From contig CAJVWU010000002.1 in the NCBI GenBank assembly GCA_913009755.1, forward strand, positions 1-64,000: a stretch of DNA of 64,000 nucleotides. Direction: 5' to 3'. A program made the translations under genes and the position numbers. Positions 5,368 to 34,980 of the stretch are shown in pieces. The notes beneath the pieces are model-generated. The model had not been told where the DNA came from. It made no database searches and saw only the letters and a program-made list of their open reading frames with translations. This stretch comes from an uncultured Bacteroidia bacterium (GTDB lineage Bacteria > Bacteroidota > Bacteroidia > Bacteroidales > F082). The stretch's first letter is position 1. Every line of letters starts with the position of its first letter.

Positions 5368-5388
5368 ATTAAAACAGCAGTTAACAAC

Positions 5389-6597: not shown

Positions 6598-6618
6598 AAA
6601 ATATTAAACAAGAGGATC

Positions 6619-6948
6619 ATGAAAGAAATAAAAGCCTTTATCAGGCCAAATAAAGTATATGATATTGTCCGCAAACTGAAAGAAGCAGGTTATGAAAACA
6701 TAACCATTTCCGAAGCCGAAGGAACAGGTAAATTCCAGGACAATGAGGCATTTGTGTCGCTCATGTATTCATTTACAGACAGTAAAATAGCCAAACTCGA
6801 AATTGTCGTGAAGAAGAAAGAGGTGGAGGCCGTAGTCAGCATTGTCTCCGAATACGGAAAAACACACAACCCCGGTGACGGCATCATCTATGTTTCTGAC
6901 GTGGAAAAAGCCTACCGGGTAAAAACGGGTTTAAAGAATGGGTTTTAG
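6619..6948 (+). CDS. PII-like signalling protein of the metal-efflux operon
   Basis: A 109-residue protein with the PII fold: MKEIKAFIRPNKVYDIVRKL at the start, a mid-region KIAKLEIVVKKKEVEAVVSIV, and a C-terminal GDGIIYVSDVEKAYRVKTG. It lacks the usual T-loop tyrosine context of GlnB/GlnK and no ammonium transporter is near. Its neighbours are the RND adaptor (21 bp upstream) and a P1B ATPase (36 bp downstream). It belongs with the PII-like proteins known to sit beside heavy-metal efflux genes. A role in sensing a nucleotide or metal and modulating transport is inferred. A second copy lies at 20498 and an N-terminal fragment at 30226. Confidence 0.88.
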   Translation: MKEIKAFIRPNKVYDIVRKLKEAGYENITISEAEGTGKFQDNEAFVSLMYSFTDSKIAKLEIVVKKKEVEAVVSIVSEYGKTHNPGDGIIYVSDVEKAYRVKTGLKNGF

Positions 6949-6984
6949 TTGGAAATTGTCAACTATGTTTCATAGAAATGAAAG

Positions 6985-9069
6985 ATGAAAAAATACAAAC
7001 TTAAAAATCTCGATTGCGCTTCCTGTGCTTCAAAAATTGAAGACAGCCTGACCAAAATGGGCGAAGTGAAATTCGTGAGTGTGAATTTCGCAACTGCTTC
7101 GATGAGCATTGAAACTGACGACCTCGAAAAGGTTAAAAAGAAAATTCTTGAGGTTGAGCCCGAAGTGGAACTTGAGATTGCGGGAACAGGAAAACCTGAA
7201 GGGCACCGGAGTGTTTTTGCCGAAAACAAACGGACAATTATTAAAGTGTTTACCGGCCTTGTTCTGTTGCTCATCGGGTTATTATTCAAAGACGAACTGC
7301 ACAATACGCCATATCATGTTGCGGAATACCTGGTATTCGTAACAGCCTACCTGATATCGGGCTGGGGTGTGCTCCGGATGGCGGTTAAAAACATCATCAG
7401 GGGTCAGGTTTTTAACGAACATTTTTTAATGTCCATCGCCACCCTCGGTGCTTTTGCCATTCATCAAATGCCAGAAGCCGTTGCGGTTATGTTATTTTAT
7501 ATTGTGGGCGAGCTGTTTCAGGATATTGCAGTGAACCGTTCACGCAAGTCCATCAAATCGCTGCTTGAAATAAAACCCGATTACGCAAACCTGAAACTCA
7601 ACGGCGAAATAAAAAAAGTTTCTCCCGAAGATGTGATGATCGGAGACCTCATCATTATAAAGGCAGGCGAAAAAATCCCTTTGGACGGCACGGTTAGCGA
7701 TGGCAGTTCGTTTGTTGACACGTCGGCACTTACCGGTGAAAGCGTCCCCCGTAAAATAGAAGCCGGTGATGAAGTATTGGCGGGCATGATCAATCAGTCC
7801 GGTTTAATTACCCTTAATGTTACAAAGCTTTTCGGGGAGTCTTCCATCTCGAAAATCCTTGAAATGGTTGAGAACGCCTCATCCAAAAAAGCAGAAACCG
7901 AAAAATTCATTACCACTTTTGCAAAATACTACACACCTGTTGTGGTGTTTGGTTCGCTGCTGCTGGCGGTGTTGCCCCCGCTTCTGATAGCAGGGGCAAC
8001 TTTCGACGAATGGATCTACAGGGCGTTGGTGGTGCTGGTTATCTCCTGTCCCTGCGCACTGGTCATCAGTATCCCGCTGGGCTATTTCGGTGGGATTGGC
8101 GGGGCTTCGCGGAGGGGAATTTTGGTGAAAGGCTCCAACTTCCTGGATGCGTTGACACAGGTTAAAACTGTGGTGTTTGATAAAACGGGTACCCTTACCA
8201 AAGGCGAGTTTAAAGTATCTGAAGTATTTCCTGCCAACGGTTTCGACGAAAATACAATACTTGAGTTAGCAGCTTATGCCGAATACAGCTCAAACCATCC
8301 CATAGCTAAATCCATATTCGAATCCTATAACCGGCAGATTGACAACGCAAGGATTGGTAAAGTTGAAGAAATATCAGGGTATGGCGTCAGGGCTTTCATT
8401 GATAAAAAGGAAATATTTGCCGGTAACGACAAGCTTCTTCACAAAGAAAACATTAAGCATGACAAATGCGATATCGAAGGGACTGTAGTGCATGTGGTTG
8501 TGGACAGAAAATATGCCGGTTATATTGTTATATCCGATACGCTGAAAGACGATGCCATTGAGGCCATTGGGCAGTTGAATAAAAAAGGGATAAAAACGGT
8601 GATGCTCACCGGCGACAACAGGCACGCAGCGGGAGCCATTGCCCGAAAGCTCGATATCGGCGAATATTATGCGGAGTTGCTCCCTGAAAACAAGGTGGAA
8701 CATATCGAACGTTTGTTGAACAAAAACAGTAAAGTTGCCTTTGTGGGCGACGGCATCAATGATGCTCCGGTACTTGCCCGCGCCGATGTGGGCATCGCCA
8801 TGGGGGCACTCGGTTCCGATGCGGCCATCGAAACCGCCGATGTAGTACTGATGACAGACTCCCCCACAAAAGTTGCCGATGCCATCCATGTTGCCAAACG
8901 GACAAGAAAAATTGTATGGGAAAACATCATTTTTGCCCTGGGGGTTAAATCGGTCTTTATCATCCTCGGCATCTTCGGCATTGCCACCATGTGGGAGGCC
9001 GTGTTTGGCGATATGGGTGTGGCTTTGATTGCCATTTTGAACGCATCAAGGGTTTTAAAAATGAAATAG
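6985..9069 (+). CDS. P1B-type ATPase, probably Zn2+/Cd2+/Pb2+ exporting
   Basis: A 694-residue ATP-driven cation exporter of the inner membrane. An N-terminal HMA domain holds LDCASC (C11, C14). It has the actuator TGES, the membrane CPC motif (SCPCALVIS), the phosphorylation site DKTGT, the nucleotide-binding HP (SSNHPIAKS) and the hinge GDGINDAP. The C-terminal membrane segment contains DMGVALIAILNASR, where the DxG agrees with the Zn/Cd/Pb subgroup (ZntA/CadA) and differs from the MxxSS of Cu pumps. It follows the PII-like gene in the Czc-type operon, which fits the same substrate range. Confidence 0.92.
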   Translation: MKKYKLKNLDCASCASKIEDSLTKMGEVKFVSVNFATASMSIETDDLEKVKKKILEVEPEVELEIAGTGKPEGHRSVFAENKRTIIKVFTGLVLLLIGLLFKDELHNTPYHVAEYLVFVTAYLISGWGVLRMAVKNIIRGQVFNEHFLMSIATLGAFAIHQMPEAVAVMLFYIVGELFQDIAVNRSRKSIKSLLEIKPDYANLKLNGEIKKVSPEDVMIGDLIIIKAGEKIPLDGTVSDGSSFVDTSALTGESVPRKIEAGDEVLAGMINQSGLITLNVTKLFGESSISKILEMVENASSKKAETEKFITTFAKYYTPVVVFGSLLLAVLPPLLIAGATFDEWIYRALVVLVISCPCALVISIPLGYFGGIGGASRRGILVKGSNFLDALTQVKTVVFDKTGTLTKGEFKVSEVFPANGFDENTILELAAYAEYSSNHPIAKSIFESYNRQIDNARIGKVEEISGYGVRAFIDKKEIFAGNDKLLHKENIKHDKCDIEGTVVHVVVDRKYAGYIVISDTLKDDAIEAIGQLNKKGIKTVMLTGDNRHAAGAIARKLDIGEYYAELLPENKVEHIERLLNKNSKVAFVGDGINDAPVLARADVGIAMGALGSDAAIETADVVLMTDSPTKVADAIHVAKRTRKIVWENIIFALGVKSVFIILGIFGIATMWEAVFGDMGVALIAILNASRVLKMK

Positions 9070-9971: not shown

Positions 9972-9987
9972 ATCAATCTTATAATTT

Positions 9988-10043
9988 TATACAATTTTCA
10001 GAAAATTTTATAACATACGTTAAAACAATAGTTCATTCTTTTG
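9988..10043 (+). promoter_or_regulatory. Copper-regulon promoter, copy A
   Basis: The 27-bp operator occupies 9988-10014 and ends in TATAAC; its left half (TATACA) is the most degenerate of the five. After exactly 21 bp comes the -7 element TTCTTTTG (10036-10043). It precedes the lipoprotein gene at 10094. Same geometry as the copies at 13681, 21461, 25731 and 32361. Confidence 0.6.
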
Positions 10044-10093: not shown

Positions 10094-10606
10094 ATGAAAA
10101 TTTTAAAAATCATTTCAATTATCGCGATCGCAGTGCTATCGGTTACCCTTGTCTCTTGCAATAAAGACAAAACGAATCCGGATCTCACAAAATCGGTTAC
10201 CGGCACCTACGAAGGGACTTTGACAACCAACAATTTGAAAACCACCAGCCCGGCCACGTCCGACATCACAAAATACAATGACTATACAATTCAGGTTCAT
10301 TGTTACGGTGATGACATTGACACCACTTTCATGCTCGAACTTTACGAAGACGGTGACATGATGAGGGTTTGTTTTACAGACAACGATTTCAACAACGAGT
10401 ATGGCCATAATAAGTCAGAAGACCATCACATGATGGGGGATAACGGTGGCTGGATGAACTGGAAACAACATTTAAGCAATGATCACGATCAGAATGACAA
10501 ACATTATGGTTTTTTCAATATGAAAAACCATCAGTTTGATTATACATTCAAGATTGAATCGAAATCAACAAACTATACACAAGAATTTAGTGGTACGCTG
10601 AAATAG
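10094..10606 (+). CDS. His/Met-rich exported lipoprotein, hypothetical
   Basis: A 170-residue protein with a lipoprotein signal (VTLVSCNKDK, Cys23). The C-terminal half is rich in His, Met and Asp (HNKSEDHHMMGDNGGWMNWK and onward), a composition that suits metal binding. The rest looks like a beta-rich periplasmic domain that I do not recognise. It is a single-gene unit: the copper-regulon promoter copy A lies just upstream and a strong terminator follows. A role in copper handling is inferred from promoter and composition. Confidence 0.75.
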   Translation: MKILKIISIIAIAVLSVTLVSCNKDKTNPDLTKSVTGTYEGTLTTNNLKTTSPATSDITKYNDYTIQVHCYGDDIDTTFMLELYEDGDMMRVCFTDNDFNNEYGHNKSEDHHMMGDNGGWMNWKQHLSNDHDQNDKHYGFFNMKNHQFDYTFKIESKSTNYTQEFSGTLK

Positions 10607-12341: not shown

Positions 12342-12349
12342 TAATTTTG
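12342..12349 (+). promoter_or_regulatory. -7 element of the HMA-AraC regulator gene
   Basis: TAATTTTG fits the TAnnTTTG consensus and ends only 7 bp before the ATG at 12357. Transcription would then begin within a few bases of the start codon, so the mRNA is probably leaderless or nearly so. Confidence 0.5.
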
Positions 12350-12356
12350 TGAATGT

Positions 12357-12929
12357 ATGGATAACACCACGCTTTATATCAAAAACATGGTTTGCAACCG
12401 TTGCATCTGGGCGGTGCAACGCGAATTGAAAAAGCTGGGGCTGAAACCCATGAAAGTGGTTTTGGGAGAGGCTGTTGTGGAAGGGCCGGTAGATGAAGAA
12501 ACACTTCAACAAATTGATACGAACCTGCACAAGATCGGCTTCGAGCTGATTGATGACAAAAAGAGCCGGCTGATAGAAAGCATCAGGACAGAGGTGATCA
12601 ATTACATCCATTACGATCCGGAACTAACGGGCAACATCAATTTCTCGGATCACCTTTCCCAAAAACTGGTTTATGATTATTCATATTTAAGCAGCTTGTT
12701 TTCTGCGGTCGAAGGGATTACCATCGAAAAATACATCATCCTGCAACGCATCGAAAAAGTGAAAGAACTGCTGGTCTATGATGAACTTACATTAAGCGAG
12801 ATCGCCTACCGCACAGGTTACAGCAGCGTGCAGCACCTTTCCAATCAGTTCCGGAAGGTCATTGGCATGAGCCCGTCATTTTTCAAAAAAATCAGGGAAA
12901 AACAACGGAAACCCTTGGATGAGGTGTAG
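12357..12929 (+). CDS. AraC-family regulator with an N-terminal HMA-like metal-binding domain
   Basis: A 190-residue protein. Residues 1 to about 70 look like a heavy-metal-associated ferredoxin-like domain with the ligand pair CNRC (C13, C16) in the usual loop after the first strand. Residues about 75-185 form an AraC DNA-binding domain: a first helix-turn-helix (INFSDHLSQKLVYDYSYLSS) and a second (LTLSEIAYRTGYSSVQHLSN) followed by QFRKVIGMSPSFFKK. AraC domains bind direct repeats about two helical turns apart, and such repeats occur at five copper-related promoters in this window. Cu(I) binding by CxxC giving transcription activation is inferred. Confidence 0.88.
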   Translation: MDNTTLYIKNMVCNRCIWAVQRELKKLGLKPMKVVLGEAVVEGPVDEETLQQIDTNLHKIGFELIDDKKSRLIESIRTEVINYIHYDPELTGNINFSDHLSQKLVYDYSYLSSLFSAVEGITIEKYIILQRIEKVKELLVYDELTLSEIAYRTGYSSVQHLSNQFRKVIGMSPSFFKKIREKQRKPLDEV

Positions 12930-13046: not shown

Positions 13047-13361
13047 TTAACGAATTGTACCCGCTTTTTTTCTTTTCTCCAGCCATTTTTTAAATGATGC
13101 AGGACTTTCGCCTGAAGGCTTTCCTGATAGCAAACCGGCAATACTAATGTCCTCGTCAATATCTTCCCAGTGGATACCATAACCTTCCCCGATCAGCCGC
13201 CAGTTCAGTTGCTCCTGTTTAGTGGCTGCAAGTAACCTTGGGAACCAGGCCAGTGGTACAGAAATAGACCGTCCATCGCTCAGTTCCACTTTTAAGGTGT
13301 CATCAGTAATGGTGACATCCAGTGCTTTTGGAGTTATGATCTCAATCGCTGAAGTAATCAT
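13047..13361 (-). CDS. DUF2442 domain protein
   Basis: A 104-residue protein with the DUF2442 signature (ITDDTLKVELSDGRSISVPL, AWFPRLLAAT, LIGEGYGIHWEDIDEDISI). DUF2442 genes are usually paired with DUF4160 genes, and such pairs are discussed as possible toxin-antitoxin or regulatory modules. The partner is present just upstream (13342-13581), overlapping by 20 bp, but its start is damaged. The function is unknown. Confidence 0.85.
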   Translation of the reverse strand: MITSAIEIITPKALDVTITDDTLKVELSDGRSISVPLAWFPRLLAATKQEQLNWRLIGEGYGIHWEDIDEDISIAGLLSGKPSGESPASFKKWLEKRKKAGTIR

Positions 13362-13581: not shown

Positions 13582-13680
13582 TTATTTTAATTCTCAAATA
13601 AGTTCATTACAATAAACAAAAACACAAAAAACTTCCCATTCAGCCTGCCGAACCCCATTCACCGGGCCACCTAAAAATCA

Positions 13681-13736
13681 TATAACTCTTTTCTAAAATT
13701 ATATAACAACCCTTCCGTTTACCTTCCCTTTCTTTG
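13681..13736 (+). promoter_or_regulatory. Copper-regulon promoter, copy B
   Basis: Operator at 13681-13707 (TATAAC-N15-TATAAC), then exactly 21 bp, then the -7 element TTTCTTTG (13729-13736). It lies 33 bp before the TTG start of the HYC protein that leads the cusCBA operon. Confidence 0.65.
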
Positions 13737-13769: not shown

Positions 13770-14144
13770 TTGATCAGAAAGATTTTATATATAACAATGA
13801 CATTCGTGTTGCTGGTTTCCATCACCGGATTCACCGTTTACAAACATTATTGTGGAGATGAACTAACCGGGGTTGCTTTTTTTACGGATTCCAGCGAATG
13901 CCACAAAACTTCCTGCAACCAATGCGAGGATGTAATGGTAAGTTGCAAACTACACATGGAAATGCTTTCTGCCGACACTCAAAATATCCCTGAAAATATT
14001 TATTTTGAAATAACGCCAAGTGAACTGTTATTTTCCCGAATTTCAGTGATGCCTGAAACAGTTGATCCCAAATTGCATTCCGAAAAAACCATCAACGATC
14101 TTTCTTTGCCTGGAATTTTTATACTCCAGTCTTTTCGATGTTGA
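13770..14144 (+). CDS. HYC-type small exported protein leading the Cus operon
   Basis: A 124-residue protein with an N-terminal membrane/signal segment followed by KHYCGDEL and a Cys-rich stretch (SSECHKTSCNQCEDVMVSC). It resembles the second protein at 25806 in length, signal, HYC motif and Cys cluster, and belongs with the Bacteroidota HYC_CC_PP proteins, although the CC and PP parts are less clear here. The start is TTG at 13770; an ATG at 13797 would cut the signal segment, and the paralogue's N-terminus aligns with the TTG version. Copper-regulon promoter copy B stands directly upstream. Its function is unknown; copper binding is likely. Confidence 0.75.
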   Translation: MIRKILYITMTFVLLVSITGFTVYKHYCGDELTGVAFFTDSSECHKTSCNQCEDVMVSCKLHMEMLSADTQNIPENIYFEITPSELLFSRISVMPETVDPKLHSEKTINDLSLPGIFILQSFRC

Positions 14145-14353
14145 TTTTATCTTATTGTTTTTGAATTTGCAAGGCCCTGAAAAATGATTCATTTCTATCT
14201 GGCCCCATTCTTAAAAAAAACATTACTATTGTTAATAATTCCAAAAACCATCATTTCATTTTATCAAATGAACCCATTGAACCATATTAAATAATGATAT
14301 ACGTTTCTTACTTGAAAAATAATTTATCAGATCCCTGTTTAAACCAGAACAAA

Positions 14354-15631
14354 ATGAGTAAAATCAAAACAAAAACATTGCTGTTTCTTATAATTTTCCT
14401 GCTTTTCGGTGGAGTCGTTTCAGCCCAGGAGGCAGATTCGCTGCCTGCTTTAATAAAGAAAGCCGTTGAGATCAATCCCAAAATCCGAACCCTTGAGGCC
14501 AAGCTGAATATGGCCAGGGAAGATATTCCCATCGGTACCAATCTTCCCGATCCGGTTTTCTCGGTTGGATTGCTTAACGTGCCTGTCAACACATTCTCGT
14601 TCAGGCAGGAAGCCATGACCGGTACGGCGTTGAATCTTACGCAAACCATCCCGTTTCCGGGATCGTTGAAAGCCAAAGCCGAGGTGAAAGCCATGGATAC
14701 CCTGATTGTGAAACAGGAGATTGCCGACCTTAAAAATCAAATTGCACAGCAAATGGCCACGCTTTACTATTCCCTCCAGGAAAAACGCCGTGAAATGGAA
14801 CTGTCAAAAGAAAGTGTGGATTTATTGAAACAGGTTTCGCTGGTGGCTAAACGAAAGTTTGAGGTGGGGACCGCCAGCCTCGAAAATATTATTCAGGTCG
14901 AGGTGCAGATTACCCGCGTAAAAGATCAAATCGAGGCGCTGAAAGGAGATGCACAATCAATGCAGGCGCAAATGAATGCTTATCTGTTGCGTGATGACCG
15001 GGTTGTCATCGCCACTCCGGAGATTGTTCCGGTTAGCCATGAGGTTTTTGTAACAGACACCTTGTTGAAACTTGCTGCCCTGAACCGGCCGGCGTTAAAA
15101 GGAATAAAATTATACCAAAATAAAGCTGTGCTACAGCAGAAAGAGGTGGAAAAAAATTACTATCCCAATTTTAAAGTAGGATTACAATACACATTCAGGA
15201 GTTATAACCAGGCCAGCGGCATTAATTATCCCGATTTTCTGGGGCTCGTCGTGGGAATTACCATTCCGCTGGGTTATGGGGGGAACATAAAAGCTCAGGT
15301 AAATAAAACACGTTACCTGCAGGACTATTATGGACAGCAGTTTCATTCTTCCCTGCAAATCCTGCAACAGTCGTTTGGAAAAATCAATGCAAAAATCACT
15401 GAACTCCGCAACCGTGAAAAGCTTTTGGAAAAAACCATGTTGCCACAGACCATTCAGGCTTATCAGGCTGCCATGGCCGATTACCAGGTGAATAAAATTG
15501 ATTTTGTGAACGTCATCAAAGCGGAAGACGATATTTTGAAAATAAAAACAGAACTGGCAAAACTGCGTACAAATTACGCTATTCAGGTTGCGCAACTCGA
15601 ATACCTGACCGGTTCAAAGCTTATCTATTAA
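14354..15631 (+). CDS. CusC/TolC-type outer-membrane factor
   Basis: A 425-residue outer-membrane channel protein. The frame is open from 14294, but the start at 14354 (MSKIKTKT) gives a standard signal peptide cleaved after VSAQ. Two outer-membrane-efflux repeats with long helices (e.g. LEAKLNMAREDIPIGTNLPD, LQQSFGKINAKITELRNREK) are seen. It precedes the adaptor gene by 25 bp and would complete the CusCBA tripartite pump. Confidence 0.9.
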   Translation: MSKIKTKTLLFLIIFLLFGGVVSAQEADSLPALIKKAVEINPKIRTLEAKLNMAREDIPIGTNLPDPVFSVGLLNVPVNTFSFRQEAMTGTALNLTQTIPFPGSLKAKAEVKAMDTLIVKQEIADLKNQIAQQMATLYYSLQEKRREMELSKESVDLLKQVSLVAKRKFEVGTASLENIIQVEVQITRVKDQIEALKGDAQSMQAQMNAYLLRDDRVVIATPEIVPVSHEVFVTDTLLKLAALNRPALKGIKLYQNKAVLQQKEVEKNYYPNFKVGLQYTFRSYNQASGINYPDFLGLVVGITIPLGYGGNIKAQVNKTRYLQDYYGQQFHSSLQILQQSFGKINAKITELRNREKLLEKTMLPQTIQAYQAAMADYQVNKIDFVNVIKAEDDILKIKTELAKLRTNYAIQVAQLEYLTGSKLIY

Positions 15632-15656
15632 TCGAAAATATAAACAGAAGATAACC

Positions 15657-17210
15657 ATGAACAAGAAAATTTTTATCTACACAGCGTTAATAGTTGTCGG
15701 TGCTGCACTTGGTGCCGGCGGATACTATTTTTATGCAGGTGGAGCCTTCGGAAACGAGGCTTCTTCTCCGGAAAACGGAACAAATCAAAAAACGGAAACC
15801 GCCAAAAAAAGGGAAATCTTGTACTACCGTGCCCCCATGAATCCAAAAGAGATTTATGACCATCCCGGAAAGTCGAATATGGGCATGGATTTAGTTCCTG
15901 TTTACGCCGATGCTTCCGGAGAAACCGGTGTGGTTTCCATTAACCCTGTTATTCAACAGGACATGAATGTGAAAATTGCAACGGTAAAATCGGGTACGCT
16001 CAATGCTGAGGTTTTTACCAACGGTATCCTTCAGCCCGATGAACAAAAAGAGTATGTGGCTACGACAAAAATCGGCGGCTGGATTGAGAAAATGTATATT
16101 AACTATACCGGTCAAAAGGTTTACAAAGGGGATAAGCTGATTAAGATTTATTCGCCCGAACTGGTGGCCGCCCAGGAAGAGTACCTCACGGCTTTGGCTT
16201 ACGATAACGCCATGAAAACAACCGGCGCCAAAACCAATCTGATTAAAAATACCGTTCGTAAACTGGAGCTGCTCGATGTGTCGGATGCCGAAATACAACA
16301 TTTGAAACAAACAAAGCAGGTGCGGAAATATATTGTACTGACAGCGCCTTTTGATGGCACCGTTTTGTATAAAGGAGTGGAAGAAGGTGCCAAAATCAAC
16401 CGGGGCACGCCGTTGCTTAAAGTTGCCAACCTGCATAGTTTGTGGATCCTCGCCGATATTTACGAGTACGAGTTGTTTAAAATCGGGCTGGGTGACCATG
16501 TACTGGTAACATTTGACTACCTGCCGGGCAAAAGTTATAAAGGGACAGTTTCGTTTATTTATCCTACGCTCGACACCAAAACACGTACCATCAAGGTACG
16601 AATTGTCCTTCCAAACCCCAAAGGTGAACTGAAGCCGGGTATGTTTGCTTCGGTTGATATCAAAGGAAAAAGCCTTGGTGTTTACCCCCTTATACCCGAG
16701 CAGGCGATACTTCGAAGCGGACGGGTGAATACGGTCATCATTGCTTTGGGCGGTGGAAAGTTTAAACCGGCACAAATTGAACTGGGCGCCTATTCCGATG
16801 GCTTTTACCAGGCGTTAAGCGGTTTGCAGGCCGGGACAAAGATTGTTACTTCCGCCCAGTTCCTAATTGATTCCGAATCAAACCTGCGGGCGGCTTTGAG
16901 CGGTTTTTCCGGTGCTGATACTACTGAAAAAATGAGTGAAGGGGAGATGAAAAATATGGACAAGAATCAGAAGAATGGCAAAACTGTCATATCCGATAAA
17001 AAACTGGAATCCGAACTTATTCGTAAAGGTGTTATTGACTTGAAGGCGATTGATAAAAACGGGGATGGCAAACTTTATCAGGATATTATGGACTGGAATG
17101 TGATTTCCGACAAGCCGGCAACCTGCCCGATATGCGGAATGAAACTGCGTGAGTTTTCCATTGAACAGGTGAAAAAGAACCTGAAAGATCATGGATTCTC
17201 CTACCGATAA
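15657..17210 (+). CDS. CusB-type adaptor with metal-binding ends
   Basis: A 517-residue periplasmic adaptor of the Cu/Ag pump. After an N-terminal anchor comes a heavy-metal binding module (YYRAPMNPKEIYDHPGKSNM to residue about 85), as in many CusB proteins. Then come the lipoyl, barrel and helical-hairpin domains (GWIEKMYINYTGQKVYKGDK; LTAPFDGTVLYKGVEEGAK). The C-terminus adds about 100 residues: a Met/Lys-rich linker, an EF-hand-like loop (D466-K-N-G-D470-G-K) and a second metal module with CPICGM (C490, C493). Delivery of Cu(I) to CusA is the known role of the family; the role of the C-terminal extension is unknown. Confidence 0.92.
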   Translation: MNKKIFIYTALIVVGAALGAGGYYFYAGGAFGNEASSPENGTNQKTETAKKREILYYRAPMNPKEIYDHPGKSNMGMDLVPVYADASGETGVVSINPVIQQDMNVKIATVKSGTLNAEVFTNGILQPDEQKEYVATTKIGGWIEKMYINYTGQKVYKGDKLIKIYSPELVAAQEEYLTALAYDNAMKTTGAKTNLIKNTVRKLELLDVSDAEIQHLKQTKQVRKYIVLTAPFDGTVLYKGVEEGAKINRGTPLLKVANLHSLWILADIYEYELFKIGLGDHVLVTFDYLPGKSYKGTVSFIYPTLDTKTRTIKVRIVLPNPKGELKPGMFASVDIKGKSLGVYPLIPEQAILRSGRVNTVIIALGGGKFKPAQIELGAYSDGFYQALSGLQAGTKIVTSAQFLIDSESNLRAALSGFSGADTTEKMSEGEMKNMDKNQKNGKTVISDKKLESELIRKGVIDLKAIDKNGDGKLYQDIMDWNVISDKPATCPICGMKLREFSIEQVKKNLKDHGFSYR

Positions 17211-17239
17211 TTATTAACTAAAATACAAAAGGATAACTT

Positions 17240-20200
17240 ATGATACCCGCAGAAAACAAAAAAGACGGTTTTATTGACAAGATAATAGAATGGTCAATCA
17301 ACAATAAAATTTTGGTCATTATCCTTACGGCGGCTTTCGTGGCTGCAGGTATATGGGCCATAAAGAACACTGCCGTAGATGCAATTCCCGACTTAAGTGA
17401 TGTCCAGGTAATAATTTTTACAAAATATTCCGGACAGGGGCCTCAAATTGTGGAAGATCAGGTTACGTATCCCCTCACCACCAAAATGCTTTCCGTACCG
17501 GGGGCCATTGATGTACGTGGTTATTCGTTTTTCGGTTTTTCCATGGTTTACATCATTTTTGAAGACGGAACCGACATTTACTGGGCACGTAGCCGTGTGC
17601 TGGAATATTTAAGTTCCATGCAAAGCCAGTTGCCCAAAGGGGTTTCGCCCGAACTGGGGCCTGATGCCACCGGGTTGGGCTGGGTTTACGAATATGTGCT
17701 GACATCGAAAAAGCGAAGCCTCGGTGAGTTACGTTCCATACAGGACTGGTTTTTACGCTACGAACTGACGGCCGTTCCCGGTGTGTCGGAAGTAGCCAGC
17801 CTGGGCGGTTATGTCAAACAGTACCAGGTAAATATCAACCCCATAAAACTGGCTTCGTACAACATTTCCCTCGAAAAGATTAAAAAAGCTATCCAAAACA
17901 GCAACAACGATGTGGGTGGCCGATTGCTGGAAATGGGCGAAATGGAATTTATGGTGCGCGGACTGGGCTACATCAAGAGTAAAGAAGACCTGGAAATAGT
18001 GGCTATTGATGTGAACAAGGCAACCGGAACACCTGTGTATCTGAAAGATGTGGCAAACATTGATATCGGTCCCGAATTACGCCGCGGCCTGGCCGACTGG
18101 AACGGCGAAGGCGAAGTGGTGGGAGGCATTGTCATTCAGCGATATGGTGCAAACGGACTGGATGTTATTGAACGCACAAAGAAAAAACTTCAGGAGTTGA
18201 AAAAGTCACTTCCTGACGACGTACAAATCATTACGGCTTACGACCGGTCTGGACTTATTGACGAAGCCATTGATAACCTGACGGATAAGCTGATAGAGGA
18301 GATGATTGTGGTTTCCGTTATCATTTTTATCTTCCTGTTACATTTCCGTAGTTCGTTGGTGGCCATCTTTACTTTGCCCACAGCAGCCATCGGCGCCCTG
18401 CTCTTTATGCATTTGCAGGGTATTAATGCAAACATTATGTCGCTGGGGGGTATTGCCATTGCCATTGGAGCCATGGTGGATGCGGCGATTATCATGGTGG
18501 AGAATGCGCAGTCTCACGTACTGCATAACCAGCTAAAACCAAAAAATGAGCAGAAGCCACACTGGGCTGTCATTATGGAGGCTTCCAAAGAGGTGGGGCC
18601 ATCCATCTTCTTTTCGCTGCTGGTGATTGTGGTCTCCTTTTTACCTATTTTTGCGCTGGAGCAGCAGGAAGGACGCTTGTTTAAACCGCTGGCCTATACC
18701 AAATCCTATTCCATGGCCGTTGGAGCCGTCCTGGCCATAACCATCGTCCCGGTTTTGATGGGCTATTTTATCCGCGGAAAGATGAAAAAGGAGGAAGACA
18801 ACCCCGTAACCCGTTTTCTCATGTACATCTATCATCCCATTGTTGATTATGTGATGAAGAAAAGATGGCTTGTGCTTGTGGTGGCAGCGCTGGTCGTGGC
18901 GGCTACCTGGTTTCCTTACAAAAAGCTGGGTTCTGAATTTATGCCTCCGCTTTACGAAGGCGACCTGCTGTATATGCCGACTACTTTACCGGGGATTTCC
19001 ATTACCAAAGCCCGTGAACTATTGCAACAAACTGACAAGATTATCAAAACTTTTCCCGAAGTGAAATCCGTGCTGGGGAAAATCGGAAGAGCCGAAACCG
19101 CTACTGACCCGGCGCCTTTATCCATGATTGAAACCACCATCCAGTTGAAGCCCCAAAGTGAGTGGCCCAAAGGCATGACGGTTCAAAAACTGATTGATAA
19201 AATGGATGCGGCCATTAAAATTCCCGGGCTTACCAATGCATGGACCATGCCGATTAAAACAAGGATTGACATGCTTTCTACCGGTATAAAAACCCCGGTT
19301 GGCATAAAAATCGGCGGCCCTGATCTGAAAGTCCTTCAACGGCTTGGGGAAGAAGTTGAAAGGGCAGTAAAAAATATCCCCGGTACCCGTTCGGTTTATG
19401 CCGAGCGTGCCGAAGGAGGTAATTATGTTGACTTCGACATTAACCGTGATGCCATTGCCCGTTACGGCCTGACCGTGGGGGCGGTCCAAAACGTCTTTAT
19501 GTCGGCTGTGGGTGGAATGAATATTACCAAAACGGTGGAAGGGCTGGAACGTTATCCGGTTAACCTGAGGTATCAGCGCGATTACCGTGAAAATATTCCG
19601 GCACTCAAACGTGTGCTTGTCCCCTTGCCCCACGGTGGAAATATTCCGCTTGAGCAGTTGGGGGAAATTCTAATAAAGAAAGGCCCCCCTGTCATTAAAT
19701 CGGAAAACGCACGTCCCAATGCCTGGGTGTACATTGATATTGAGAATATTGATGTGGGGACGTATGTGGAAAGGGCACAGAAGGTGGTCAGTGAGAAGAT
19801 TAAGCTGCCCCAGGGATATTCGCTGGTGTGGAGCGGCCAGTACGAATATATGCAACGTGCTGCCAAAACATTGGCTTTGGTTATCCCCCTGACACTACTA
19901 TTGGTGATTCTGCTGCTGTATTTTAATACAAAATCGTTTACAAAAACAGGTATCATCCTGCTCGCATTGCCTTTCTCCATGGTCGGTGCCATCTGGTACC
20001 TCTACTTTGCCGGATTCCACATGAGTGTGGCGGTGTGGGTCGGTATTATTGCACTGCTTGGTGTGAGTGCCGAGACCGGGGTTGTCATGCTTCTTTACCT
20101 CGACATAGCCTACGATAACTGGCTGAAACAAGGAAAAATCAAGACCCTGCACAATTTGCGCGATTCTATTTTCGAAGGTGCGGTAAAACGTATCCGCCCG

Positions 20201-20431
20201 AAAATGATGACCGTCCTGGTGCTGTTCTTCGGTTTGTTGCCTATTTTGATTGGACACGGTGCAGGCAGCGATGTGATGAAACGTATTGCAGCGCCTATGG
20301 CCGGCGGCATTTTTACCAGTTTTGTTATGGAACTTACTATTTTCCCGGCTCTCTTCTATATCATTAAGAAAAGAAAACTGAAAAAAGAACACGCCCTGCT
20401 CAGTGAAGAAAATCAAACGGTTCAGGGATAA
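17240..20431 (+). CDS. CusA-type Cu(I)/Ag(I) RND efflux pump
   Basis: A 1063-residue inner-membrane pump driven by the proton gradient. The TM4 motif reads GGIAIAIGAMVDAAIIMVEN, the Cu/Ag class. The three methionines that bind and relay Cu(I) in E. coli CusA (M573, M623, M672) are all present as M579 (LLYMPTT), M629 (PLSMIET) and M678 (RIDMLSTG), each offset by +6. It forms a complete tripartite system with the two genes before it. A terminator-like hairpin separates it from the PII-like gene. Confidence 0.95.
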   Translation: MIPAENKKDGFIDKIIEWSINNKILVIILTAAFVAAGIWAIKNTAVDAIPDLSDVQVIIFTKYSGQGPQIVEDQVTYPLTTKMLSVPGAIDVRGYSFFGFSMVYIIFEDGTDIYWARSRVLEYLSSMQSQLPKGVSPELGPDATGLGWVYEYVLTSKKRSLGELRSIQDWFLRYELTAVPGVSEVASLGGYVKQYQVNINPIKLASYNISLEKIKKAIQNSNNDVGGRLLEMGEMEFMVRGLGYIKSKEDLEIVAIDVNKATGTPVYLKDVANIDIGPELRRGLADWNGEGEVVGGIVIQRYGANGLDVIERTKKKLQELKKSLPDDVQIITAYDRSGLIDEAIDNLTDKLIEEMIVVSVIIFIFLLHFRSSLVAIFTLPTAAIGALLFMHLQGINANIMSLGGIAIAIGAMVDAAIIMVENAQSHVLHNQLKPKNEQKPHWAVIMEASKEVGPSIFFSLLVIVVSFLPIFALEQQEGRLFKPLAYTKSYSMAVGAVLAITIVPVLMGYFIRGKMKKEEDNPVTRFLMYIYHPIVDYVMKKRWLVLVVAALVVAATWFPYKKLGSEFMPPLYEGDLLYMPTTLPGISITKARELLQQTDKIIKTFPEVKSVLGKIGRAETATDPAPLSMIETTIQLKPQSEWPKGMTVQKLIDKMDAAIKIPGLTNAWTMPIKTRIDMLSTGIKTPVGIKIGGPDLKVLQRLGEEVERAVKNIPGTRSVYAERAEGGNYVDFDINRDAIARYGLTVGAVQNVFMSAVGGMNITKTVEGLERYPVNLRYQRDYRENIPALKRVLVPLPHGGNIPLEQLGEILIKKGPPVIKSENARPNAWVYIDIENIDVGTYVERAQKVVSEKIKLPQGYSLVWSGQYEYMQRAAKTLALVIPLTLLLVILLLYFNTKSFTKTGIILLALPFSMVGAIWYLYFAGFHMSVAVWVGIIALLGVSAETGVVMLLYLDIAYDNWLKQGKIKTLHNLRDSIFEGAVKRIRPKMMTVLVLFFGLLPILIGHGAGSDVMKRIAAPMAGGIFTSFVMELTIFPALFYIIKKRKLKKEHALLSEENQTVQG

Positions 20432-21373: not shown

Positions 21374-21460
21374 TTAAAACCCAGCAATTCATCACTTTCA
21401 TTTCTTCCGGTTTCAAATCCGGAACAACTCGGCTCCGATCACCAACAGAACCCAAAAAGA

Positions 21461-21516
21461 TATAACTCATTTCCATAATTCTGTAACGTTTCATGGCATG
21501 ATGTGTTCTATCATTG
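21461..21516 (+). promoter_or_regulatory. Copper-regulon promoter, copy C
   Basis: Operator at 21461-21487 (TATAAC-N15-TGTAAC), 21 bp, then the -7 element TATCATTG (21509-21516). The 27-bp operator and about 20 bp before it are nearly identical to those of copA. Its position means that an ATG at 21498 lies upstream of transcription start and cannot be the start of the oxidase. Confidence 0.7.
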
Positions 21517-21548
21517 CACAATCATATTTAACATCAATTACATCAGAC

Positions 21549-23270
21549 ATGAAAAAAACAAGACTCTCAACACTCGCGCTTTTATTTGCATTTGTTGCAC
21601 TCACAGCCCAAAATCCGGTGATCATCCCGGATACCTTATCAGGAACCGAATTCGAACTCAATCTTCAGGATGGAACATTTCAGTTTTACGACGGAATCAA
21701 TACCACCACCATGGGGGCGAACGGCGACATACTCGGCCCTACGCTCATAATGGAAAAGGGGGATTTTGTGGACATCACGGTTAACAATCAATTGGCCGAT
21801 ACCACTACCATCCACTGGCATGGTATGCATGTTTCGGCAGCCAACGACGGCGGCCCCCACACCATCATCCTGCCGGGCGAAACATGGAATCCGCAGTTTA
21901 CCGTCATAGATAAGGCCGGAACCTATTGGTATCACCCGCATCTGCACAGGCAGACCAACAAGCATGTTTCACTGGGTATTGCCGGTTTTATCATCGTGCG
22001 GGATGACGAAGAAGCCGCCCTCGATCTGCCTCGCAGCTATGGTGTGGACGATTTTCCGCTGGTGATACAAACCAAGAATTTTGACGCACAGAAACAAATC
22101 ATTGTACCTTCAAATAATGACGATGTGTTGATGGTGAATGCCACCATTGATCCTTCGCTGGATGTTCCGGCGCAGGTAATCCGTTTTCGCCTGCTTAACG
22201 GTTCTTCGCAGCGCGTGTTCAACATCGGCCTGTCGGGTAACGGTATGTTTTATCAGATCGGCTCCGACGGGGGACTGCTTGCGGCGTCACTTGCTTTGAC
22301 CCGCCTGCAAATGGCTCCCGGCGAACGTGCCGAAATATTGATTGATTTTGACGCTATGGAAGGACAATCAATTCATCTGATGAGTTATGCCTCCGAATTT
22401 CAGGATGGTATTTATGGTGCCACCAATCCAGGCACAATGCAGTTTATGACGCTTGATGGATACAAACCCAATGCGTTGAACGGCACCGATTTTAACATCA
22501 TTGAGTTCAATGTGGTTGCCCCCACAAATGACCCGGTAACAACAATACCGGCTTCACTGGTTGAGGTAACTCCATACCCTGAAGATTCGGCCGATATCAC
22601 CCGGACCCTCAATTTTACGCCCGAGTTCATGGGCCCTGACCAGTTGAACGGCAGGTTTTTTATCAACGGCCTTACTTTCGATATGGACGTTATTAACTTT
22701 ACCATTCCATTAAACAATATCGAAATATGGAGTATTACCAATCAGTCGGCCATAGCTCATCCTTTTCATATTCATGACGTTCAGTTTTATGTGCTGACCA
22801 GGAACGGTGTTCCTCCGCCGGCCAGCGAACAGGGCCGGAAAGATGATATCCTGGTAAAACCGCAGGAAACCGTCCGGTTAATTACAAAATTTGAAGATTT
22901 TGCCAACGATCCGGTTCCTTATATGCTCCACTGCCACATGCTCGTGCACGAAGATGACGGCATGATGCTGCAGTTTGAGGTAGTGGACACAACAACAGGT
23001 TTTGAAGATATTACTTCCGGTGATGATGCATTTGTTTTATTTCCTAATCCTGTAACAAATGGGAACTTAACAATAGATACTCATGAGAGCAATGCTGTGA
23101 TAACATCTTATGAATTGTACAGCCTGACAGGAAACCGGATTTTACAAAAAACGGTAAATGATCAAAATCCTGAAATAAAAATAAACGTTTCCAATATGCC
23201 TTCAGGGCTTTATTTTTTGAAAGTTTATGCAGGGAATGTACCGCACACTAAAAAAATTGTGATCAATTAA
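21549..23270 (+). CDS. Secreted multicopper oxidase with type IX secretion tail
   Basis: A 573-residue cupredoxin oxidase, probably a CueO-like cuprous oxidase. The start at 21549 gives a signal peptide (MKKTRLSTLALLFAFVALTA); the open frame begins at 21498 but that ATG precedes the -7 element. Copper ligands: HWHGMH (89-94), WYHPH (127-131), HPFHIH (404-409), and HCH-x3-H-x4-M (H461, C462, H463, H467, M472), so T1 and the T2/T3 cluster are complete. The last roughly 75 residues (VLFPNPVTNGNLTID ... LYFLKVYAG ... KKIVIN) form a Por secretion (type A) tail, so it is exported across the outer membrane or kept on the surface. Confidence 0.93.
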   Translation: MKKTRLSTLALLFAFVALTAQNPVIIPDTLSGTEFELNLQDGTFQFYDGINTTTMGANGDILGPTLIMEKGDFVDITVNNQLADTTTIHWHGMHVSAANDGGPHTIILPGETWNPQFTVIDKAGTYWYHPHLHRQTNKHVSLGIAGFIIVRDDEEAALDLPRSYGVDDFPLVIQTKNFDAQKQIIVPSNNDDVLMVNATIDPSLDVPAQVIRFRLLNGSSQRVFNIGLSGNGMFYQIGSDGGLLAASLALTRLQMAPGERAEILIDFDAMEGQSIHLMSYASEFQDGIYGATNPGTMQFMTLDGYKPNALNGTDFNIIEFNVVAPTNDPVTTIPASLVEVTPYPEDSADITRTLNFTPEFMGPDQLNGRFFINGLTFDMDVINFTIPLNNIEIWSITNQSAIAHPFHIHDVQFYVLTRNGVPPPASEQGRKDDILVKPQETVRLITKFEDFANDPVPYMLHCHMLVHEDDGMMLQFEVVDTTTGFEDITSGDDAFVLFPNPVTNGNLTIDTHESNAVITSYELYSLTGNRILQKTVNDQNPEIKINVSNMPSGLYFLKVYAGNVPHTKKIVIN

Positions 23271-25050: not shown

Positions 25051-25437
25051 TTAAGATTTTTTTATTTCACTGTTGTTCTTCCCATTATAGCGGGCAAGCC
25101 GTTCTTCTATTTCTTTCATTTCCCGCAATTTGTCAGATAGTTCATCCAGTTTCAGATGTGGGAATTCCTGTCTTATAAATTCAATCCTTTCTTCATTTCC
25201 ACAATTTCCAGGGCATTTGTTTACTGCATTTACAATTTTAATGGCCAGCATTTTGCGGTAAACTTCATCCAGCAACAGGTAGTGCGCTTTCTGCAAACCT
25301 TTGTCGGCAGCCTTAAACTGTATGAGTATTTTTTCCGGATCATTTCCTTCATCCAGCATTTTAATAATACCCTCAATCTGTCCTCTTATGCTTTTCAGGC
25401 GGGTTTTTATATCGCTTGTCAAATCGTTAGGTATCAT
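25051..25437 (-). CDS. CsoR/FrmR-family (DUF156) regulator with altered metal site
   Basis: A 128-residue all-helical regulator. The start at MIPND (25437) fits the family; the frame upstream is non-coding. The helix-2 signature RLKSIRGQIEGIIKML is clear. The usual first Cys (helix 2 start) is replaced in GNDPEKILIQ, and the His-x3-Cys site reads YLLLDEVYRKM, so the standard Cu(I) ligands are absent. A new Cys cluster appears (NKCPGNCGNEE). The C-terminus is longer than usual. The adjacent genes suggest it regulates the thioredoxin/merTP cluster, possibly responding to a thiophilic metal. Confidence 0.85.
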   Translation of the reverse strand: MIPNDLTSDIKTRLKSIRGQIEGIIKMLDEGNDPEKILIQFKAADKGLQKAHYLLLDEVYRKMLAIKIVNAVNKCPGNCGNEERIEFIRQEFPHLKLDELSDKLREMKEIEERLARYNGKNNSEIKKS

Positions 25438-25489: not shown

Positions 25490-25730
25490 GAAGAAATTAT
25501 TTTGCTTTTCTTTTTTGAATACCTGTTTCCGTTGCTTATACATGCCGTAGTTATACCATTGGTCATATTGTTGGTAAGACAGATATACCGATGCGGAACA
25601 GGTTTGAAATAAAACAAATCAAATCCTTCCGGGTATAACTGATTCTAATCAGCTTTTGCCTCGCAAACCTGATAAGATTCAGTATAACTTACCGGATATC
25701 CGGTGATTTTTCTGCCAAATCCAAAAAAGG

Positions 25731-25786
25731 TATAACTCATTTCAATAATTCTGTAACAATAAATAAAGGTAAGGGTATTAGTTTTG
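25731..25786 (+). promoter_or_regulatory. Copper-regulon promoter, copy D
   Basis: Operator at 25731-25757 (TATAAC-N15-TGTAAC), 21 bp, then the -7 element TAGTTTTG (25779-25786), the best match to consensus among the five. It precedes the second HYC protein gene at 25806 by 19 bp. Confidence 0.7.
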
Positions 25787-25805: not shown

Positions 25806-26180
25806 ATGTTTAAAAAAGCCGGATATATAATTCTTACCTCATTATTAATATTCTCTACGGTGGGTTTTGTTGTTTCCAGGCATTATTGCAACAATCAACT
25901 TATTTCGGTATCTGTTGATTCACCGGCAGACAAATGCAGTGATAATATGAAGGACGACTGCTGCAATGATGAAAACCAGTATGTTGTGCTTCACGTTGAT
26001 TTCACACAACCGGTTGTTGAAGAAATGACCATTTCGGAGATCAATATTTTCAGCATTGAACTTGATTCCCTTTTTAAAGAGGTGGCTTCGGCAAATACAA
26101 CAAGCAACCCACCCCTGCCTGTTGTCCCCCGAGCGGGGCACAATGCGGCACTCTCGCTCATACAGTCCTTCTTATTGTAA
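25806..26180 (+). CDS. HYC_CC_PP-type small exported protein
   Basis: A 124-residue protein with signal segment (residues 1-22), then RHYCNNQL, a Cys cluster (DKCSDNMKDDCCNDE) and NPPLP near the C-terminus, so the three named motifs HYC, CC and PP are all present. It is paralogous to the protein at 13770 and, like it, is the first gene after a copper-regulon promoter. Probably periplasmic; the biochemical role is unknown. Confidence 0.85.
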   Translation: MFKKAGYIILTSLLIFSTVGFVVSRHYCNNQLISVSVDSPADKCSDNMKDDCCNDENQYVVLHVDFTQPVVEEMTISEINIFSIELDSLFKEVASANTTSNPPLPVVPRAGHNAALSLIQSFLL

Positions 26181-32249: not shown

Positions 32250-32360
32250 TTAAAAAATAATTTGCCACTTGAACCTTTTCCTGATTCCATCCGTCAGAAA
32301 CCGGAATAGTTCCGTCTTTATGTTTTCCACATCCCCGATCACCAACAGAACCCAAAAATA

Positions 32361-32416
32361 TATAACTCATTTCCATAATTCTGTAACACCCATGAGTTTC
32401 ATATCAGTTAATATTG
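32361..32416 (+). promoter_or_regulatory. Copper-regulon promoter, copy E
   Basis: Operator at 32361-32387, identical over 27 bp to copy C, then 21 bp, then the -7 element TAATATTG (32409-32416). It precedes the copA ATG at 32461 by 44 bp. Confidence 0.7.
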
Positions 32417-32460
32417 CAAAACATTAATTCGCCAAAAAATATTTGGTAAACATTAAAAAA

Positions 32461-34980
32461 ATGAAACAAAAAAACAACAAACATTTACATGACACCGGCA
32501 ACGCAGAAATGCACAACCACGATGAAGATCATGACTGCTGCGATCACGGTGAAACAAAAACAGAAAAAACAACATCCTATTACTGCCCCATGAAATGCGA
32601 AGGGGAAAAAGTGTATGATGAGCCAGGCAACTGCCCGGTATGCCACATGAAACTTATTCCGGTGGGAAGTATAGTGGAAGAACATGACCACGATCACGGA
32701 CATGATCATCAACATGAGGGCCACAATCATGACCATCATGACAAACATGCCTCCGGTGGCGACTATTATTGCCCAATGCGCTGTGAGGGTGACAAAACCT
32801 ATGATGAGCCCGGCGATTGCCCGGTATGCGGTATGCACCTTATTAAAGGGGTGAGCGCTACACCAAAAGGAACTATGTACACCTGCTCAATGCATCCTGA
32901 GGTAAAAAGTGACCGTCCCGGAAGCTGCCCGATATGCGGCATGGACCTGATCCCCATGTCAGGCGATGTGGAAAGCGAAGAAGAAAAGGCCTATAAAAGC
33001 ATGGCAAAACGTTTTTGGGTTGCCCTGGCACTATCGGTTCCGGTGTTTTTTATTGCAATGTCAGATTACACCTCGTATGTGAACCTGGAATCTTTAGCTC
33101 CTGTAAAAGTATGGGCATGGATTCAGTTTGCACTGGCAACACCGGTTGTTTTTTATTCCAGTTGGGATTTCTTCATCAGGGGATGGAATTCAGTCAGGCG
33201 GTGGTCGCCAAACATGTGGACCCTCATTACAATAGGTGTGGGTGCGGCTTACCTGTTCAGTATTTTCGGGCTTTTGTTTCCCGAAATGTTTCCTGTTCAG
33301 TTTAAAGACGCACAGGGCAATGTGCATCTTTACTTTGAAGCGGTAGCCATCATCCTTACCCTGGTTTTGCTGGGACAGGTACTCGAATTGCGGGCACACA
33401 GCAAAACCAATTCGGCCATTAAAGCGTTGTTAAACCTTGTCCCTCCCGTAGCGCGGGTTATCCGGAACGGTAAAGAAGAGGAAATTCCTTTGGAAGAAGT
33501 AAAAGTAGGAGACACACTGCTGGTTAAACCCGGTGAAAAAATTCCGGTTGACGGGATTTTAACTTCGGGAACTGCTGTTATTGATGACAGCATGATCACC
33601 GGCGAACCCATTCCATCAGAAAAAACAGTGAACGATAAAGTAACAGGCGGCACCATCAACGGGAAAACCGTTTTTGAAATGAAAGCCGAAAAAGTAGGTT
33701 CCGACACCTTGCTTGCCCAGATCATTAAAATGGTGAACGAAGCCAGCCAGTCGCGTGCCCCAATTCAAAAACTGGCCGATGTTGTGGCCAAGTACTTTGT
33801 TCAGGTCGTTGTGCTTATTTCAATACTTACTTTCATTATCTGGTATTTCTGGGGACCCGAACCCGCGCTGGTTTTTGCTTTTGTCAATGCCGTATCGGTA
33901 CTGATCATTGCCTGCCCCTGTGCGCTTGGCCTGGCTACCCCTATGTCAATTATGGTTGGAACGGGGCGTATGGCGCAATCGGGCGTACTGGTCAAAGATG
34001 CCAGTGCCATCGAAGAAATGAATAAAGTAGATACACTGATTGTTGATAAAACAGGTACACTTACCGAGGGTAAGCCCAGTTTAAAAGGATATAAATCGTT
34101 TGGAAAACTGAGTGATGAGGAAGTACTAAGATATGCCGCTTCAGTAGATGCCAACAGTGAACATCCCATTGCCGATGCCATTGTTGCGGGAGCAAAAGAA
34201 AAGGGAATAAAACTATTCAAAGCATCCGATTTTGAATCGGTTACCGGAAAAGGTGTTCAGGCTGTTTACGAAAAACAAAGATTTGGCCTGGGGAATCACC
34301 GCCTGGCAGAGACATTTTCTGCAAATATTCCGGCAGAAAACGCAAAAGAGGTTGAGGATTGGCAGTTAACAGGCCAGACGGTTATGTTCCTGATTATCGG
34401 AAACAGGATAGAAGGTATTGTTAGTGTGGCCGATAGAATTAAAAAAACATCTGCAAAAGCGATTAAAGAATTACAAAAGATGGGATTGCGTGTACACATG
34501 ATTACCGGCGACAATAAATTTACGGCAAAATCAGTTGCCGATGAACTTCATCTCGATGGGTTTGATGCAGACTTCCTGCCAGAAGACAAATACAATAAAG
34601 TAAAGGAATTGCAGCAACAAGGCCACAAAATTGCCATGGCTGGTGACGGCATAAATGATGCTCCTGCCCTGATGCAGGCCAATGTGGGAATTGCCATGGG
34701 AACAGGTACGGATATTGCCATGCAAAGCGCCGAGATTACCTTGATTAAAGGCGACCTGAACGGCATTGTACGGGCACGTGAACTAAGCCATAAAGTGATG
34801 AAGAACATCAAGCAAAATCTGTTTTTTGCTTTTGTTTACAATTCGGTAGGTGTGCCCATTGCCGCAGGAGTACTTTACCCTGTTTTCGGCCTTTTGCTCA
34901 GCCCCGTTATTGCTGCGGCAGCCATGAGCTTTAGCTCGGTATCGGTTATTTCAAATGCTTTAAGACTGAAAAGGCAATAA
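32461..34980 (+). CDS. Cu(I) P1B-type ATPase CopA with three N-terminal metal modules
   Basis: An 839-residue copper exporter. The ATG at 32461 is preferred to a TTG at 32443. The N-terminus has three heavy-metal binding (HMBD) modules at residues about 40-66, 102-128 and 140-165, each of the form YCPM/CSM...CPxCxM, joined by His/Asp-rich linkers (residues 75-95: [20 protein letters not shown]). The catalytic part shows TGEP, the membrane CPC ([11 protein letters not shown]), [13 protein letters not shown] and the Cu(I)-specific C-terminal YNSVGVP and [15 protein letters not shown]. There is no classical HMA domain. The gene has its own copper-regulon promoter. Confidence 0.95.

Follow-up and report, generated by a model that had tools for sequence, protein, structure and literature searches.

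A fusion of a heavy-metal-associated domain with an AraC domain as a probable copper-responsive transcription activator in Bacteroidota

A small regulator gene lies between a Zn-type operon (976-9069) and a group of copper-type genes in the window, as we call the whole 64,000-nucleotide stretch of DNA analysed here. The open reading frame begins with ATG and encodes 190 residues, which the earlier note on this DNA had read as a heavy-metal-associated (HMA) domain with a CNRC motif joined to an AraC DNA-binding domain; the motif (C13-N-R-C16), Pfam HTH_18, a family profile and a structural model all bear this reading out. The C-terminal part has the domain of about 100 residues with two helix-turn-helix motifs that marks members of AraC/XylS, and is matched by HTH_18 (E 1.8e-17, residues 101-178) as well as by HTH_AraC. 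The note had set the protein in a proteobacterial frame, which has to be replaced: the host belongs to the Bacteroidota, as do, by record title, 80/80 of the best relatives out of at least 440. We consider it likely that this regulator is a one-component activator of transcription in the cytoplasm that responds to Cu(I), with metal and DNA binding both predicted.

12357..12929 (+), HMA-AraC regulator; HMA domain residues 1-66 (CxxC = C13, C16), AraC DNA-binding domain residues ~67-184

All five operators proposed earlier were recovered in the window, four of them without mismatch to a common 27-bp pattern (at 13681, 21461, 25731 and 32361, all on the plus strand; 0 expected in shuffles) and a weaker fifth from 9983. 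The four strong sites and the weaker one each stand ahead of a copper-type gene or of a small gene next to such genes:

9983..10015 (+), weaker fifth operator, 24.1 bits, before the 10094 gene; has TTTG at the fixed offset
10094..10606 (+), small His/Met-rich lipoprotein-like gene, putative operator target; no NCBIfam match
13676..13708 (+), operator 1; TTTG at the -7 offset; upstream of the HYC_CC_PP and TolC/CusB/CusA genes
13770..14144 (+), small HYC_CC_PP protein (NF047658), encoded directly behind operator 1
14294..20431 (+), RND efflux genes of copper type, TolC-, CusB- and CusA-like; Pfam identifies CusB, whereas TolC and CusA are named from sequence
21456..21488 (+), operator 2; ATTG in place of TTTG at the -7 offset; upstream of the multicopper oxidase-like gene
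21498..23270 (+), multicopper oxidase-like gene, likewise named from sequence and not by a family scan
25726..25758 (+), operator 3; TTTG at the -7 offset; upstream of the second HYC_CC_PP gene
25806..26180 (+), second small protein of the HYC_CC_PP family, by NCBIfam
32356..32388 (+), operator 4; ATTG at the -7 offset; upstream of the CopA-type P1B ATPase
32443..34980 (+), CopA-type P1B ATPase with a CPC motif, its name read in the same way; its homologues are the commonest operator target

In the whole genome (4.05 Mb, 98% complete), a search allowing up to three mismatches returned only the four strong operators, with three matches in the reversed-pattern control, and a chance repeat as their origin is rejected on the shuffle, reversed-pattern and reversed-locus controls. 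The fifth site is AT-rich and nearly symmetrical, with an overlapping minus-strand match of 20.4 bits; the one 22.0-bit match in the reversed-window control is probably the same spot, and a similar site precedes a homologue of the 10094 gene at another locus (L004). ATTG replaces TTTG at the promoter offset in two of the four strong operators (2 and 4). The listed start of the multicopper oxidase-like gene, 21498, falls inside the promoter, and the true start is probably 21549. A role of the HYC_CC_PP proteins (13770-14144, 25806-26180 and homologues) in the copper response is suggested. Homologues of these proteins stand directly behind operators in three further loci as well (L013, L038, L074).

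The Zn-type operon next to the regulator was rejected as a target: among the 16 listed window scores none lies near it except one at -2.7 bits. Nor is autoregulation supported, with no site before 12357 among the best 16 window scores. A -7-like box, TAATTTTG, occupies 12342-12349 and ends 8 bp before the A of the regulator ATG, and the regulator mRNA may therefore be leaderless. Between the regulator and operator 1 stands a small gene on the minus strand (13047-13361), which we take to be DUF2442-like; it is perhaps an insertion, as 44 loci elsewhere have the operator at the regulator stop codon.

The link between regulator and operator, also part of the earlier reading, is supported by conservation across the Bacteroidota. 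When 80 orthologue loci (the best 80 of at least 440 relatives) were scanned with a matrix built from only the four window sites, 52 sites exceeded 12 bits, compared with one in reversed controls; after iteration there were 86 sites, in 63/80 loci, and five in controls. The regulator's own strand carries 83/86 of these sites, and 44 start within about 13 bp of its stop codon. In 11 plasmid loci outside the training set, nine sites were found in eight loci (controls 0), five of the nine with TTTG at the offset. Sites above 12 bits are absent from 17/80 loci, five of which hold a CopA or CusA homologue; three of the 17 have weak sites just after the regulator (L036, L044, L059), and three have less than 300 bp downstream. 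In the consensus the half-site AATNNTRYAA occurs twice in direct orientation, 21 bp or two helical turns apart, and half-site pairs in the 80 loci peak sharply at that spacing (37 pairs, and at most two at any other spacing from 10 to 60). Pairs of TRTAAC alone proved too weak as a half-site (six exact pairs at spacing 21, four at 35), and the fuller half-site was used.

The family itself is widespread. At least 440 stretches encoding relatives were confirmed in one species-genome collection, some of which may match by the AraC part only, and a family match at E 1e-10 occurs in 150/296 Bacteroidota genomes, in some only at 1e-11 to 1e-13. Among 17 matched phage records one covers more than 80% of the query, at 24.6% identity, which gives no link to phage. 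The 11 plasmid loci, taken from 25 listed matches and likewise from Bacteroidota, have copper-type genes near the regulator in 9/11 cases, among them copper ATPases, multicopper oxidases, RND genes, four-helix-bundle copper-binding proteins and a Cu/Zn transporter; of the other two, L184 carries a Ser13 form of the regulator and no copper-type gene, and L190 is without annotation.

What the operators serve was read from the genes behind them. Across the phylum they mostly precede copA, genes for HMA proteins and the like by 75-95 bp, and the first gene after the site is a CopA homologue at 41/79 sites scoring at least 16; for 5/78 sites there is no ORF at the expected distance. Regulator, operator and copA are adjacent at L021, from the cultivated strain Sphingobacterium composti KCTC 12578. 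Thirty other target proteins were scanned (25 of 26 unlabelled targets, L041 being dropped as doubtful, and five others), of which 21 have HMA, six MauE, three DoxX and two ArsP_1 domains. The exact operator plus -7 box pattern occurs in 40/296 genomes of the phylum (reversed-pattern control 1), and 39 of these 40 hold a family match, compared with 150/296 overall (Fisher p 6e-12, a value that overstates independence because the genomes are related); it is missing in 111/150 family-holding genomes, that of the window included. This co-occurrence links the operator to the family and not to copper. In 20 stretches round exact matches, chosen mostly from genomes with many exact operators, 26 sites were read and 21 have an ORF behind them. 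Two of the 21 are plainly copper genes (L128, L130), and the other targets are ferritin-like, DUF2383, DUF4142 or pyridoxamine-oxidase-like. In many-operator genomes the majority of sampled sites thus serve non-copper genes, which counts against the copper reading.

Sixty stretches yielded 62 regulator copies, of which 34 have CxRC, 17 SxRC, ten CxHC and one CESC; copper neighbours were scored by blastp to the window's own genes (in a wider test also by an HMA-like motif), a procedure that misses other copper genes. At the CxRC loci the best match within 1.5 kb is copper-type in 24/34, two of these with a zinc-type gene too. The CxHC copies, with the motif MVC(S/K)HC (L101, L103, L107, L109, L143, L145, L148, L150, L152, L154), have a zinc-type best match within the same distance in 8/10 (ZntA in seven, CzcA in one), although all ten come from one genome family (f24) and are hence non-independent. 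They mostly lack a copper-type operator, which is present at one of the 11 CxHC/CESC loci, and they are possibly zinc-type sensors of the same build. The SxRC loci have neither a copper-type nor a zinc-type neighbour (0/15). In the wider test the figures are 26/34 for CxRC, 0/15 for SxRC and 34/45 for all CxxC copies. The HMA motif thus goes with the metal type of the neighbouring genes, which supports a metal-sensing HMA domain.

The copies that have lost Cys13 (MVSxRC or MVSTSC; L095, L097, L099, L108, L132, L134, L141, L146, L149, L155-L160, L184) are surrounded by non-copper genes. PAS/histidine kinases, cupins, YceI and a ferritin-like protein are among the SxRC neighbours, and genomes related to the Cys13-lost copies have operators of the same architecture before ferritin-like and DUF2383 genes. 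In a tree of the window protein, 27/80 orthologues (every third) and 51 paralogue copies, with the 11 CxHC/CESC copies left out, the SxRC copies fall into a single group (96/85), beside L094 and L140, which are CxRC copies. These Cys-bearing sisters have no copper neighbours either, and the change of context need not, therefore, stem from loss of Cys13; in the SxRC line the link to copper may have been lost before the cysteine.

The protein might control the operators and yet sense a different soft metal through its HMA domain (Ag, Zn or Hg), receive copper only from CopZ, or respond to thiol redox. HMA domains with CxxC bind several soft metals, the CxHC paralogues adjoin zinc-type genes, and one operator target is an SO_0444 Cu/Zn transporter (L022), with a similar one, judged by ArsP_1, at L027. 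However, copper genes make up most of the targets next to CxRC copies, and the window's Zn-type operon is without an operator; we regard a signal other than direct copper sensing as unlikely.

Whether copper would switch the genes on through activation or through release of a repressor is a matter of promoter layout. Promoter columns were taken from 67 regions (63 plus the four of the window; score at least 20, plus strand, ORF 30-130 bp downstream, duplicates removed). TTTG, the motif of the Bacteroidota -7 box, which has a TTTG partner at -33, starts at offset 57 in 68/77 operators and at offset 56 in five, in columns that the matrix does not use. The second, proximal half-site fills the slot of the -33 TTTG, and its distance to the -7 box is constant; the lack of a TTTG start at offsets 25-32 is partly a product of the matrix itself. 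An A at offset 68, conserved in 81% of the 67 regions, is plausibly the transcription start. CsoR and CopY, both cytoplasmic copper sensors, are repressors, and by analogy the present protein could be one that copper releases. Against this, the operator is placed ahead of the -7 box and covers the -33 slot, with the distance rigidly kept, which is the geometry of a class II activator, and repression appears distinctly improbable. The earlier interpretation is strengthened in part by this promoter geometry, that of an activator, and by the match between the HMA motif and the metal type of the neighbours. At the loci of two near relatives, L007 (after 1977) and L010 (after 5851), a palindrome, TTCGTAMATTTACGAA, stands beside a TTTTTG box before the gene that follows the regulator; it is perhaps the site of another regulator.

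The operators could also belong to some other protein, with the HMA-AraC gene a mere neighbour, and the candidates are a CsoR-like gene or a response regulator:

25051..25434 (-), CsoR/RcnR-family gene, disfavoured as rival regulator; without two of the CsoR copper ligands in the aligned part

To the earlier account of the usual copper regulators a CsoR-family gene has to be added. No CueR in the genome passes the NCBIfam cut-off (best 26.7 against 147.4 bits), nor does any CusR/CopR (25 matches, best 147.3 against 279.2 bits); both cut-offs are strict, and only 1 of 14 control genomes passes under each of them. The gene at 25051-25434 is the genome's only CsoR-family match. Near it is a MerTP-like gene (24085-24699). 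The proximity of this CsoR-like gene to operator 3 and the 25 sub-threshold matches to the CopR-type model speak for control by another regulator, as does the fact that response regulators also bind direct repeats. On the other side, the operator tracks HMA-AraC across the phylum and sits at the regulator stop codon in 44/80 loci, and the CsoR-like protein is the best panel match for no ORF of the 80 loci. Moreover, CsoR operators are inverted repeats. In an alignment with 2hh7, Pro and Val of the CsoR-like protein fall at the first Cys and the His of the Cys-His-Cys ligand set of CsoR, the second Cys lying outside the aligned part; as a copper sensor it is disfavoured on these grounds. That the operators answer to a different protein is, in our judgement, very unlikely, and HMA-AraC is retained as their putative regulator.

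The identity of the N-terminal domain rests on several lines of evidence taken together. Pfam HMA (PF00403) matches residues 5-63 of the full protein with E 3e-4 and 21.5 bits, and residues 1-68 alone with E 4.5e-5 and 24.2 bits, still under the cut-off of 24.8; the regulator is therefore not a formal Pfam member and is called HMA-like by fold, profile and motif. A family profile search matches the HMA domains of ATP7B and CopZ. The AlphaFold2 model (69 aligned sequences, mean pLDDT 89.7; the alignment holds 69/81 proteins, 12 having been dropped by hand without a fixed rule) has a strand at 3-9, a helix at 14-26, strands at 31-35 and 38-42, a helix at 47-59 and a short strand at 63-64, followed by seven helices. 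The predicted N-terminal part is thus the ferredoxin-like beta-alpha-beta-beta-alpha-beta arrangement of HMA domains, its last strand of two residues. The HMA fold, on which the earlier reading could have failed, is therefore present in the model: in VIA-align, residues 2-65 superpose on CopZ 6ff2 (Z 8.3, rmsd 2.5, 64 aligned), and residues 67-190 on the AraC-type domain 6swi (Z 15.0, rmsd 2.6 over 117 residues). Unrelated ferredoxin-like folds tie with the HMA rows (2qmw, Z 8.1; the ACT domain 6lxg, Z 7.7), and because of these ties the call depends on fold, profile and CxxC position jointly. The metal-site motif lies in the first loop as C13-x-x-C16 in 81/81 proteins (the window protein and its 80 nearest relatives), in all of which K9, N10, M11, V12, C13, R15, C16, L36 and G37 are invariant; for R15 this is limited to these near relatives, as CxHC and CESC copies exist further out. 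That the N-terminus is instead another alpha/beta domain, as the sub-threshold Pfam score, the detection in 10/69 members and the tie with ACT-type folds might suggest, is scarcely credible against the profile matches to ATP7B and CopZ, the agreement of model fold and Cys positions and the invariant CxRC (81/81).

Single-sequence Pfam searches detect the HMA domain in 10/69 family members at E 1e-3, and routine annotation would often overlook it. In plasmid records the gene is named 'AraC family transcriptional regulator', 'helix-turn-helix domain-containing protein' or 'response regulator transcription factor'. The window's own genome has a second HMA-AraC-like gene with a CxCC motif (L002; G000:C22, about 6985-7575), whose reading frame is broken inside the HMA domain; it is either a pseudogene or an assembly error.

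For the copper-responsive activator that we favour, the following mechanism is proposed. The N-terminal domain, with its CopZ/Atx1-like fold, would bind Cu(I) through C13 and C16, and copper might promote dimerisation or a DNA-competent form, the least certain of the steps. As a dimer the AraC domain would bind the two direct half-sites 21 bp apart, and the bound regulator would stand in for the missing -33 contact and recruit RNA polymerase in the style of AraC at class II promoters. Its targets in the window would be the Cus-type RND genes, the multicopper oxidase, the CopA ATPase, both HYC_CC_PP genes and, perhaps, the lipoprotein gene at 10094. A broader reading, which we hold as evenly balanced between true and false, is that HMA-AraC proteins form a one-component metal-sensor class of the Bacteroidota, in which a copper-chaperone domain has become part of a transcription activator. 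Two residues in the loop of the HMA domain would decide the metal: CxRC would stand for copper, with the present operator code, and CxHC for zinc-type genes, whereas an SxRC clade would have left metal sensing for stress-type genes (ferritin-like, DUF2383, pyridoxamine-oxidase-like) under operators of similar architecture. Cytosolic copper sensing in the phylum would then fall mainly to the CxRC form.

Among the open-access papers listed, none describes a copper regulator of the HMA-AraC type, and the copper sensor of a large bacterial group seems to have gone unrecognised so far. Passages of a 2024 genome survey of Bizionia argentinensis discuss CueR-, CopY-, ArsR- and CusRS-type candidates, report that sensors of the CueR or CopY type with a copper site are absent, and name only ArsR-type proteins as likely cytosolic copper regulators (PMC11213822). 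The HMA-AraC family could fill this gap. It could account for the induction of copA and cus genes, provide an operator code for regulon prediction and give the HYC_CC_PP proteins a place in the response to copper. The natural branches with CxRC, CxHC and SxRC, in turn, would allow a direct test of how the metal of a sensor domain is changed or lost. What is likely to be new here is that a DNA-binding family already known is combined with a sensor domain of a new type and with a new operator code, in a likely phylum-wide role.

The proposed regulator combines features of several known systems. CopZ/Atx1 and the HMA domains of P1B ATPases share its fold and the CxxC after strand 1; unlike these, the regulator's HMA domain is fused to a DNA-binding domain and reads NMVCxRC, not GMTCxxC. 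CueR, of the MerR family, and CsoR are cytoplasmic Cu(I) sensors controlling copA, the same job that is proposed for HMA-AraC, with unrelated DNA-binding folds, operator types and sensors. YbtA responds to a metal-siderophore complex, and with it and other metal-linked AraC regulators the present protein shares an AraC domain and metal-related genes, whereas YbtA is without metal sensing by an HMA domain. On the DNA side a parallel is AraC at araI1-I2, where the half-sites at araBAD are also spaced by 21 bp: common to both are a domain with two helix-turn-helix motifs, direct-repeat half-sites, which for HMA-AraC are putative binding sites, and an operator abutting the promoter, as for a class II activator. 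In AraC the sensor is a cupin-like arm, whereas in HMA-AraC it would be the HMA domain, and the protein would act at -7 promoters of Bacteroidota whose -33 slot the operator occupies.
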